Shown piece by piece: positions 28,045 through 34,027 of a DNA stretch of 64,000 bases (its first letter is position 1; each line of letters opens with the position of its first letter). The stretch lies in the NCBI RefSeq assembly GCF_021917145.1, contig NC_061064.1, positions 1,986,216 to 2,050,215 of the forward strand, in the 5' to 3' direction. The DNA is from Hypomesus transpacificus (lineage: Eukaryota > Chordata > Actinopteri > Osmeriformes > Osmeridae). The notes under the pieces were generated by a model that searched no databases, was not told where the DNA came from, and worked only from the letters and a program-made list of their open reading frames with translations. The position numbers and the translations under genes are program-made.

Positions 28045-30154
28045 CTGGAGGGGAGAAAGAAAAATGGAAAAGTAGAAAAGAGAAGAATGATTGAATCAAA
28101 TGTAAAATGAAAAGAATTGATGTTGTTTGATCGTTTTGACGTCAAGGCCTTGAGCTTTGTCGATAGGGACGTTTGTTTTTCTCTTCATATTAAAGTACAT
28201 GTTCCAATTGTGAAACTGGTGGTTGAAACTGGCAGCTCTGAGGAGCTGTTTCCATGACGGTTCCCCGCAGAACCAACCATCAAATGTACTTTTACCGAGC
28301 GGGCCGCAGAGGGCACCGTGCAAGCCCATTCACCAGAGTGAAGGATAATCATTTCTTTTTTCTAATGTTTTCCTGGAACGAGTGGTATGATTACGACCCT
28401 GAAGTAACAACAAGGCAGGGTCTTCTTTCAGAGCCGTTAAGCTCATCAAAACCTCATTCATGGAGCCACAGGTAACAGCATACCTAACGTTCAGTCCAAG
28501 GGGGGGTCTCTCTAACCAGGTATATTTCATTTCTAATCCATTGGCTTCCTTTATCTCAGTTTGGAGTTTTGGAATCGGTTAGCGTTGTGATTATTACAAG
28601 GGAGACTTGGAAGTGTCATCCAATCAAAATACTTGACTGAAAATCACCGGCCTTAATGAAAGTTGTCAGTCACGTCAATGTTCCCTATCCCTGGTTCTTC
28701 AGAAGGCAGACCCTTTCAGAATCTCTCAGACCAATAAACAACAGGAGAGCCCCGACGTTCTATTTCAGAACACTGTTGCCATGACGAACAATGTACTTGT
28801 TACCAAGGATAATTCGCTCGTTTGCTGAAGCCGCGTTCTCCGACAGGTAGTGCGCGCCGCCCGCACGCGTGCGTGCTGAACAGCGGGGTGTAAAGCGTTG
28901 GATGCTAACAAGGGAGAGATGGAGTTACAAGGTGCGCAGACCGGGGCAGTGAAAGAGGCCATGCTGGATGTGCGCGAGAGCGAGGGTTAAGGGCGAGCAG
29001 AGAGGAAATTACCGCTCAGCAAATTAACTCAGGCCGAGTGTGATTAAAAATTATTTTTGTGAAACTAATTTGCACTTACTGTTGCATAAAATTAAGGTTG
29101 CTTTGGAACAGTTGGTTCAATTTTCAGAAGACCATCAGGACTTTTGAAAATTTAATGAGGATCCAAATTGCCTCTTTTTTTTGTGTCCTCCCACAGACTG
29201 GAGAAACCCGATGCTGAGTGCGTGCGCTAAGGACCAAACGAGCAACTCGTCTGCTGAATGTAATCACCCTCACTCACTCTCTGTCACACACACACACACT
29301 AATGCCTTTATTTTCTGTGATGACTCTCTTTGAGGATGCACAAGGTAGACCGAGGGCAGGGTTCAGAGGATGACCTCCAGTGGACCCTCCCCATCACCAC
29401 CCAGCTCCCAGGGCTGTGCAGTGGGGCTGGTCACACCACAGCGGGGAGCTCACAACTGGAGAGGCATGAGAGAGGAACCGGGTTGAAAAGAGTCCATATC
29501 AAATGTAATAGAATCTAATGAATATGCATGTAATCGGCCATGAAGTCCCTCCTCAGGCAGAGCGGTCCCAGCTGAGGTAGGAAGGCTGTTTGGGGGAGGG
29601 GGTTTGGGGGGTACAACACTTTGACGGATGTTGGAAGCTTGGCGCAGAGTAAAACTCTGACAGTGAAACATGGCCGTTTCTTATTGGGTGTCATGAATGG
29701 AGGGGCGGGGGGTGCGTGTGTGTGTCGCTGGTGAGCGAGCGGCAGATTGCGAGACAGGCCTTGGACGGCCGTTTGAGAGGGACAGCGACAGGGTCTTTAT
29801 GACCTCATTGGCAGGGGGACGTGGGGGTTGTTAATCTAATACCCCCACCTCCTGCCGCTCTCTCCACCTCTACCCCCACCCCCCGCACACGCTCCACTCC
29901 CCACATCCCCAGGCCCACACCCGCTGTGTGGAGGAGGGATGAGACTTGGGAGGGAAGGTGTTGGGAGAGGACACAGGCAGAGCACCACAATCTGTTCCTG
30001 CCACCAGAGCTTGCAACTTCTCATTTCCTTTTTTCTTATTTTCACTCTAAAAGGGAAATCCACATCCACAGTCAGTGTGGAGTACAGACATGACCCACTT
30101 TGACACGCTTGCCTGTCTGCCTGCCTTCCTACTGTATCTGAACGTCTGTCTATC

Positions 30155-30258
30155 AACCTGCCTGCCTGCCTGCCTGCCTGCCTGCCTGCCTGCCTGCCTG
30201 CCTGCCTGCCTGCCTGCCTGCCTGTCTGTCTGTCTGTCTGTCTGTCTGTCTGTCTGTC
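30155..30258. repeat. (CCTG)n-(TCTG)n tetranucleotide array
   Basis: About 17 CCTG units run into about 9 TCTG units without interruption. Confidence 0.95.
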
Positions 30259-31159
30259 AGCCTGCATATCTGCATATTTGACTGTGTTCCTACTTTATCA
30301 GCCTGCCTGCCTATCAGCTGTCCAGCCTATCTACCTGTCTGCATCCCTAAAGGTGCTCCAGATATCTAACAGACAGAACTCGAAAGACCATGACTGAGAG
30401 TTGCAGTCATGAAATTAGAGGACAGGTGCCTCCAATGTTACATCTCTTTCATCCATCCTCCCTTCTTCCTCCTCCTCTTCCTCATTTCCTCCTCCTGCTT
30501 CTCCCTTCCTACCTGCCTGCTTCATAATGTCTCCAAATCCCCTCAGACCTCCTTTCCTCCTTTCTTCTCTTCCACATCTCCTCCTCCTCCTTTCTTTTTT
30601 CCCACCTTCATCTTTTTGTTATTTTTTTCTCTCTCCATCCCTACCTCCCTCCCTTTCTCCCTTCCTTGCTTCCTTTCGTTCTTCCTTCCTTCCTCTCCCC
30701 TACCCTCCTTCATTGCTCTCCCTCCCCTCCCTTCCCCACTCCCTCCCTCCCTTTCTCCCTCTCTCTCCCTTAATGTGGAGCTTGTACATCACCGATCGTT
30801 GAGCAGAGGCATGGTGTCTGCTGTTTCGAAGGTTGCCCTGACTTCAAAAACAGGCTAGGAGGATGTGTGAGATCTGCATGGAGCCACCAGGTGATCCTAC
30901 ACACTCTCATGGTGACCTCAGAGCTGATCTTAGGACAGTTGTTTGGGTTCCCTCTGATGGGCTTCACCGGGGTTTCTGAGTGTGAGATCTGATCCTGGTT
31001 CAGCAGGTGAGGACAGGAAAGGAGGGCCTGCGGTGAAACAGCAGGAGGCTGTGGTACTGCCTGGGGCTGTGGAGAACACCCACTGTTAGTGAGCCTGTCT
31101 TACAGGGGGGGCTGGGAGAGGACCTGTCTGATAAGGGGAGCTAAGACCTCTTACCACCC

Positions 31160-31685
31160 TGCCTCTCCTCCCTGCCTCCCCAGCCAAGACACTGCCTCTC
31201 CTCCCTGCCTCCCCAGCCAAGACACTGCCTCTCCTCCCTGCCTCCCCAGCCCAGACACTGCCTCTCCTCCCTGCCTCCCCAGACCCAGACCCTGCCTCTC
31301 CTCCCTGCCTCCCCAGCCCAGACACTGCCTCTCCTCCCTGCCTCCCCAGACCCAGACCCAGCCTCTCCTCCCTGCCTCCCCAGCCCAGACACTGCCTCTC
31401 CTCCCTGCCTCCCCAGACCCTGCCTCTCCTCCCTGCCTCCCCAGCCCAGACACTGCCTCTCCTCCCTGCCTCCCCAGACCCAGACCCTGCCTCTCCTCCC
31501 TGCCTCCCCAGACCCAGACCCAGCCTCTCCTCCCTGCCTCCCCAGCCCAGACACTGCCTCTCCTCCCTGCCTCCCCAGCCCAGACACTGCCTCTCCTCCC
31601 TGCCTCCCCAGACCCAGACCCAGCCTCTCCTCCCTACATCCCCAGACCCAGACCCTGCCTCTCCTCCCGGCCTCCCCAGCCCAGT
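31160..31685. repeat. Minisatellite (CTCTCCTCCCTGCCTCCCCAG)
   Basis: Core CTCTCCTCCCTGCCTCCCCA followed by variable spacers GCCCAGACACTGC or GACCCAGACCC(T/A)GC, about 16 units with unit lengths near 34 and 36 bp. All three plus frames are open by composition only. Confidence 0.9.
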
Positions 31686-32069
31686 GAGCTCTGGGCTGGG
31701 GCAGCTCTCTGCTCCAGCTCCCCCTGTGTCCTCTGTGGTTCCGTCTCTTCCACCAAAAGTAAATTTTTAATGACACACTTTGTTATGTGGGTCCACAGGG
31801 GGCCCTTAGCTGCCGCGATCTAATAAAGAGTCTCCCTGCCTGGTCCCTCCAGAACGGACTTCATTAAAAACCACAGCGGAAAAAACAGGGGCCTTTGAAG
31901 TTCCCATTCGTGGCTGTGCCTGTCTGCCTAAACTGCTTTTTTATATTTGTCTGTCCATCTGTGTGTTTGCTGTTTTATATGCTGTTACCCTGGTTTATGT
32001 CGATGGCTGTAAACAGACGTGATATGAGGAAAGGACGTGAACCACACTGGGCCACTTCAGAACTTCGGG

Positions 32070-32294
32070 AGGGTGTGTGTCTGTGTGTGTGTGTCTGTGT
32101 GTGTGTGTGTGTGTCTGTGTTTGTGTGTCTGTGTGTGTGTCTGTGTGTGTGTGTCTGTGTGTGTGTGTGTCTGTGTGTGTGTCTGTGTGTGTGTGTGTCT
32201 GTGTGTGTGTGTCTGTGTGTGTGTATGTATGCGTGTGGTTGCGTGGGTGTGTGTGACATCAGACACAAACATCAAGCCGTGTGTGTTTGTGTGT
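32070..32294. repeat. (GT)n microsatellite abutting the gap
   Basis: GT repeats with TCTGTG interruptions run to the last base before the N run, a usual reason for an assembly break. Confidence 0.92.
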
Positions 32295-32794: not shown

Positions 32795-33205
32795 GCTCAC
32801 AGATTCTCTGCTTTTCCCATGAAGAGTCCCTGACAGATAATGTTAGTCTGCCGGTTAGCGGCCATCTTGTTTGTGGGATTATCTTTTTCTGTCAGTCACT
32901 TTTCCTGATCACCAGGGAAACCCGCCAGCACTCCAACAGGATATGGTGTCACATCAGCGGCCGTTCACATGGCAACCGCCTCAAACAACTTTAACTGTAT
33001 ACATTATCCTAGACAATACAACAACTTAAACTTTTTTTCTCTTCATCAGCTTTGTTGTATTTGTGATGTTGCTTCCTGTTATAGTCTGTCTATATATGTT
33101 CTATATATGTAATGGTTGATGGTGATACATGCATTATCTGGATGTAAATACTGGATTCTGACGGAACAGAATGCACACAGACAGATCTCTCTCAGTCATT
33201 ATATC

Positions 33206-33611
33206 CTGAGATGGCAAAATTACACACTTCATTCAAGTAAAAGGAAAAGTACATGTATATTTATGTTTAAAAAGACTCTGGTAAGTACTGACTACACTTT
33301 TTCACTCAAGTTAAAGTAAAGAACTGTGGGCTCTGACATATACACTTAAGTAAAAAGTAGCCATTACTACCTTTTTTAGTGTTTTAGTAAAACGTTGTCC
33401 AAAAATCTTTATGTACTGATATCAGACAAATCTACTGAAGTGTAACAACAGTGTTGTAAGTGTAATACCAACATAATAACAGTGTAATAACAACATAAGT
33501 GTTTTCGTACAGTGTAACAACATATTTAAAAAAGGAAAGTAAAAGTAGCCTTCTGATACCAGAAAGATCTTCAGTAACTAACTATTTGTACTTTGTTACT
33601 TTCCATCTTTG
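33206..33611. mobile_element. hAT-like non-autonomous element, copy 2 (gria4 intron)
   Basis: Ends CTGAGATGGCAAAATTAC and the complement of CAAAGATGGAAAGTAAC; interior shares AAAAGACTCTGGTAAG and TACTGACTACACTTT with the copy at 9831. Flanking 8-mers ATTATATC / ATTATGTA match at six of eight positions, consistent with a decayed target duplication. Confidence 0.65.
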
Positions 33612-33948
33612 ATTATGTAAATATTTATATATATAAAATACCAGTGATTATATCAAGGTATATACAATCAACTAGTTTACGGTCACCACCCAACTGTGTT
33701 ATCAATTCCTTTTACAAGTAGCGTTGTTGTTACCATAGAGATGTGTCCAAAAGCAGCCACCTGGTGCTGGATGTAAACTCTGACCCCCAGGCCCTGGCTA
33801 CTGTCCTGCTCCTGACCTCCGACCCCAGTAGGGAGATCTGTCTGCTGTGTTCTGTCTCCTGAGGGGCTGAGGGGCTGTGGGACCAGCAATGCTAGCTAGC
33901 ATTAACACACCTTTACCACCCTTTCTTTAACAACCCTCCTCCCCCACT

Positions 33949-33977
33949 CCCCCCCCCCCCCCCCCCCCCCCCCCCCC
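33949..33977. repeat. Poly-C run
   Basis: An uninterrupted run of about 29 C, 50 bases before the gria4 flop exon. Runs of this kind are unreliable in length. Confidence 0.9.
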
Positions 33978-34027
33978 GATTGGATGCATCCTCACCCTTT
34001 CACCAAATATGTTTTATCGTTTTCAAG

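Follow-up and report, generated by a model that had tools for sequence, protein, structure and literature searches.

Why do two genes of the fish Hypomesus transpacificus both lose their 5' halves at one short run of unassigned bases? The question arises in a stretch of 64,000 nucleotides of contig NC_061064.1 (NCBI RefSeq assembly GCF_021917145.1; 437 Mb, 376 contigs), here called the window and corresponding to C5:1986216-2050215 in the contig labels used below. Left of the run, a CNK2-type (cnksr2-like) gene on the minus strand ends abruptly; right of it, the AMPA-receptor gene gria4 begins on the plus strand at its flop exon. Very probably this is an artefact of the assembly, namely an unsized gap at a scaffold join at which sequence was lost, whether or not the two contigs are neighbours. 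Two contigs would have been set side by side in scaffold C5 with a placeholder of 500 N, and the sequence holding the 5' halves of the CNK gene and gria4 would be missing from the assembly that we searched. The fish itself probably has both genes intact, and they are decapitated in the assembly only. The truncation is thus most likely an assembly defect and not a real biological feature.

Two genes cut at a single run of 500 N

The run at 32295-32794 is exactly 500 N long, in agreement with the initial annotation, and is the only one in the window. On its left side, tblastn places CNK exons at 21340-25075, with the ETHV C-terminus at 21340. The last visible exon ends at 28044, is aligned to a paralogue on contig C1 and is preceded by the splice acceptor CCTCCAG, which agrees with the abrupt rightward end described earlier for this minus-strand gene. 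With six CNK 5' probes derived from the C1 paralogue, no convincing match was obtained in 28046-32294 (the top one, with 22.3 bits and an E value of 0.006, falls on a tandem repeat), while both of two downstream probes matched the window, scoring 59 and 128 bits. The best match of CNK 5' exons in the left flank scored 23.9 bits (30% over 30 amino acids) and was reached in 1 of 50 shuffles.

On the right side, the flop exon at 34028-34142 is the first gria4 exon seen, so that the start described at 34028 is borne out. The joined flop, M4 and tail exons scored 237 bits with the best GluA4 chain in the PDB, compared with 158 for the best GluA1 and 153 for the best GluA2 chain. By these scores, the right-hand gene is gria4, with a GluA4-type 3' end and the long tail. 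A flip exon at 34993-35107 is absent from the initial annotation. GRIA 5' exons gave at best 18.1 bits in the right flank, a score equalled in 32 of 50 shuffles. In the entire window we found no 5' exon of either gene; the initial annotation had seen neither half in the 6 kb between them.

The orientation of the two genes alone would fit a real, compact head-to-head pair in which ~500 bases hold the two 5' halves. However, the ~460 amino acids of CNK and ~740 amino acids of GluA4 need ~3.6 kb of coding sequence, and such a pair is excluded by this arithmetic for all practical purposes. The initial annotation had reasoned that the two 5' halves would have to lie within the same 6 kb. This follows only for a gap whose 500 bases were actually measured; because the run fits a placeholder of unsized length, there is no need to place the halves within 6 kb, and we infer that the run is a placeholder, that sequence was lost there and that both genes are whole.

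Both contigs stop within an intron, the left one within a GT-rich repeat. GT repeats had been reported for both borders of the gap; we see one at the left edge only, whereas the right edge opens with GCTCACAGATTCTC. For 28100-30120 of the left flank, no second genome copy was found (both candidates scored, the second being a 35-base match), and the first 400 bases of the right flank had no second copy among the places scored (40 of 390 candidates). At the same depth of scoring, a dispersed repeat within ~33199-33611 had places on 24 contigs. Since the tested parts of the flanks, apart from this repeat on the right, are without a second copy, a haplotype duplicate is unlikely.

Table 1. Features on both sides of the gap, in window coordinates.
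Feature	Position	Strand	Basis and remarks
Left block: teneurin end, sh2d1a, agtr2, apool	1-18229	teneurin +; sh2d1a, agtr2, apool -	Collinear with C1:10,687,833-10,706,590
CNK2-type (cnksr2-like) 3' half	21340-28044	-	Exons for ~amino acids 465-1034, including PH domain and C-terminal ETHV
Left contig end	28045-32294	none	4.25 kb; GT-rich repeat at its end; no CNK exon found
N run	32295-32794 (= C5:2018510-2019009)	none	Taken as scaffold join of unsized length
Right contig end	32795-34027	none	No gria exon found; dispersed repeat inside
gria4 flop exon (the first one seen)	34028-34142	+	tblastn match, splice signals
gria4 flip exon	34993-35107	+	Match and splice signals
gria4 M4 exon	about 36245-36382	+	Boundaries from splice signals
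gria4 exon of the long C-terminal tail, including the stop codon	about 37570-37734	+	Match and splice signals
Right block: elmod1 and slc35f2	51141-59757 (elmod1 51141-54708; slc35f2 ~58.2-59.8 kb)	-	Paralogous pair on C167

The missing 5' halves in the assembly

A human CNKSR2 query found six places with the PH exon, five of which also have 5' exons; only the one in the window lacks them (44 of 167 candidates scored). CNK 5' exons derived from the C1 copy (amino acids 77-319) yielded no further set in the assembly and none on C5 (all 39 candidates scored). Six AMPA-receptor genes were seen (first query, 52 of 133 candidates scored; gria4 tail/3' query, 24 of 24; GluA4 pore query, 55 of 55). 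Four of them have pore exons and at least the M4 exon, the gene at C1:1.48-1.50 Mb has only 5' and pore exons, and the one on C5 has only its 3' end. The GluA4 pore query, with all 55 candidates scored, detected no spare gria4 pore set in the assembly.

The gene at C1:1.48-1.50 Mb was considered as the missing half of gria4 and rejected as gria2-type. The same three exons matched a GluA2 query with 90, 93 and 94% and a GluA4 query with 87, 94 and 87%, one of the three thus leaning to GluA4 by one point; arginine is coded at its Q/R site. One of its exons is interrupted from C1:1500332 by a run of N of 2569 bases or more, which may be a gap or a stretch absent from the copy searched. The AMPA genes on C32 (C32:669269-681399 of 687512) and at C1:11.24-11.30 Mb have pore exons that match GluA4 slightly better than GluA2. 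An M4 exon is present in each, the gria4 tail matched neither, and we tentatively take both for gria3. With part of the candidates scored, no exon of the C32 gene is listed before ~amino acid 273; the contig end is 6 kb away.

The initial annotation had proposed to locate the missing cnksr2 and gria4 5' exons in the assembly. No spare set was found at the scored places, but the assembly, or the copy of it searched, appears incomplete: human PGK1 gave no candidate in the whole assembly, although the query aligns with human PGK1 over its full length. PGK1 is expected in every fish, and its absence suggests that sequence is missing from the assembly or from the copy searched. Because PGK1 also gives nothing, the absence of the two 5' halves is weak evidence; an empty search answer without a known positive is no proof of absence.

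These searches also bear on whether the CNK gene and gria4 could truly be without 5' halves in the fish. The halves were found at no scored place in the assembly, and CNK exons expected nearby were not found in the 4.25-kb flank, which would agree with a real truncation. Against it, two losses would have to coincide at one gap, the exons still present have open frames and plausible splice sites, and the CNK paralogue on C1 has 5' exons. In addition, gria4 is conserved among vertebrates. We therefore regard a real truncation as very improbable.

Neighbours or misjoined contigs

The initial annotation called the gap a probable scaffold misjoin. Its assembly origin and the cutting of both genes at one gap agree with our findings, whereas a wrong join is not established by the evidence given. 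In a misjoin, which overlaps with loss at an unsized gap, the left and right contigs would come from different places and the two 5' gene halves would have been lost in independent events; we put this at somewhat less than an even chance. If the contigs are neighbours, one lost stretch explains both truncations, while a misjoin needs two losses. This argument is only mildly in favour of a correct join, since loss of sequence near gaps and contig ends looks frequent: the CNK copy on C1 lies at a 100-N gap, the gria2-type gene runs into the N run at C1:1500332, and the C32 AMPA gene is cut near a contig end.

The blocks on both sides have paralogous partners elsewhere in the assembly. As teneurin, sh2d1a, agtr2, apool and CNK lie in the same order and on the same strands at C1:10,687,833-10,717,568, the left block is genuine. 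The C1 CNK copy extends 5' to 10,737,063; its SAM exon was not found, and a 100-N gap follows at C1:10,737,906, just past the gene. In a stretch of the PH exon, the window CNK is identical to the C1 copy at 49 of 51 residues and to human CNKSR2 at 42 of 51, while the CNK copy on C32 shares 46 of 51 with human CNKSR2 (identities counted, no tree made). The window CNK gene looks like one member of a duplicated pair. Given this pairing with C1, and a PH exon that resembles human CNKSR2 less closely than that of C32 does, its human X address says little. For the right block, C167 (111,445 bases) contains slc35f2 and elmod1 in equal relative order.

Several observations weigh against our preferred reading of loss at an unsized gap. 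The left flank of the window seems to differ from its C1 paralogue, because three C1 CNK exons sit 1.1-2.6 kb upstream of the exon matching the window's last one and none was found in 4.25 kb of the window. Beyond the C1 CNK copy, exons of gria, elmod1 and slc35f2 went unmatched as far as 10.821 Mb; we saw only repeats and some weak matches there (for example, 32% over 41 amino acids from a frame beside elmod1). CNK had no match on C167, and no left-block gene was found in the 14 kb of this contig that were read (59.2-73.2 kb). Further along, C167 carries a kelch/BTB gene, which we take to be kbtbd3-like, and a presumably alkbh8-like gene. Finally, the missing PGK1 and the cut in the C32 AMPA gene weaken the one-loss argument a little, as the missing half may be just one of many missing genes.

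That neither partner showed genes of the other block in the stretches covered speaks for a misjoin, as do the two copies of cul5, which lie on C74 and C167 (the latter at 43-45 kb). On the other hand, the candidates scored on other contigs included no missing 5' half of CNK or gria4. Moreover, neither partner settles the neighbour of the window blocks, because C1 is itself interrupted by a gap just past CNK, where the neighbour would be expected, and C167 is short. Overall, we lean very slightly towards an origin of the two contigs from the same chromosome region. That the join itself is right, with the duplicate CNK2 gene and gria4 as true head-to-head neighbours across an unassembled stretch, is a tentative proposal that we rate a little below even. 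If the join is true, Xq-like and 11q22-like blocks, derived from one ancient duplicated chromosome set, would lie side by side.

Two further identifications concern the human likeness of the blocks. The best PDB match for both teneurin parts is Teneurin-4, and the match lists hold no Teneurin-1. A tenm4 identity (11q14), which would make both blocks 11q, is nevertheless disfavoured since the identity to Teneurin-4, estimated by eye, looks low for a direct orthologue; the gene is likely tenm1. A gene that begins near the right end of the window (~63.0 kb, and C5:2051.4-2051.9 kb) is one that we take to be srrt/ARS2-like, and the right block is therefore not purely human 11q22-like.

Other sequences were noted in passing. 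Between gria4 and elmod1 lie two AIG1/GIMAP-type GTPase frames on the minus strand (41819-42970 and 45895-47118; Pfam AIG1) and 2 kb of tandem repeats with a 23-base unit (43609-45606), an array open in all three plus frames. Four 3' elements of the UnaL2 long interspersed element (Rfam RF00436) occur at 6180, 17175, 23207 and 34451 of the window, all on the plus strand. The last of these comes after apparent transfer RNA (tRNA)-like short interspersed element sequence, in which no tRNA was called by ARAGORN.

Gene order and gap length in other genomes

The difference in human homology had been put forward as a sign of a misjoin: we take the human addresses of the left-block genes to be on X and those of the right-block genes at 11q22, and we take pgk1, amot and pgrmc1 of coho salmon to be Xq-type genes. 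On coho salmon chromosome 28, gria4b, elmod1 and cul5b occupy 15.3-15.8 Mb; pgk1, amot and pgrmc1 follow at 23.1-24.1 Mb, ~7-8 Mb from gria4b/elmod1 (PMC8102513). As far as these positions go, 11q-type and Xq-type genes therefore share a chromosome in one fish, which argues against a misjoin. With both sets on coho chromosome 28 and the window CNK being a member of a duplicated pair, the contrast between X and 11q22 is a weak sign. Our literature search turned up no paper evidently on how cnksr2 and gria4 are ordered in fish, while some papers, PMC7888154 for instance, name both genes. For users of the assembly, the CNK and gria4 models will be truncated and the distance across the gap is unsized; gene order across C5:2018510-2019009 should not serve as synteny evidence until it has been checked.

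Two known kinds of assembly structure can be compared with the locus. As in a chimeric scaffold, blocks of presumably different human homology meet at the gap; unlike in such a scaffold, no counterpart halves were found elsewhere. The second kind is the placeholder gap of Hi-C scaffolding. In a beetle genome paper, 500 Ns were put between contigs after 3D-DNA (PMC10320752). Here, a gap of 100 N is also present; among 20 stretches, no second run of 500 N was seen and one of 100 N was (C1:10737906). The round 100-N gap and the beetle convention are both compatible with placeholder gaps. Still, the window shares with Hi-C placeholder gaps an exact, round run of N at which gene models are cut.

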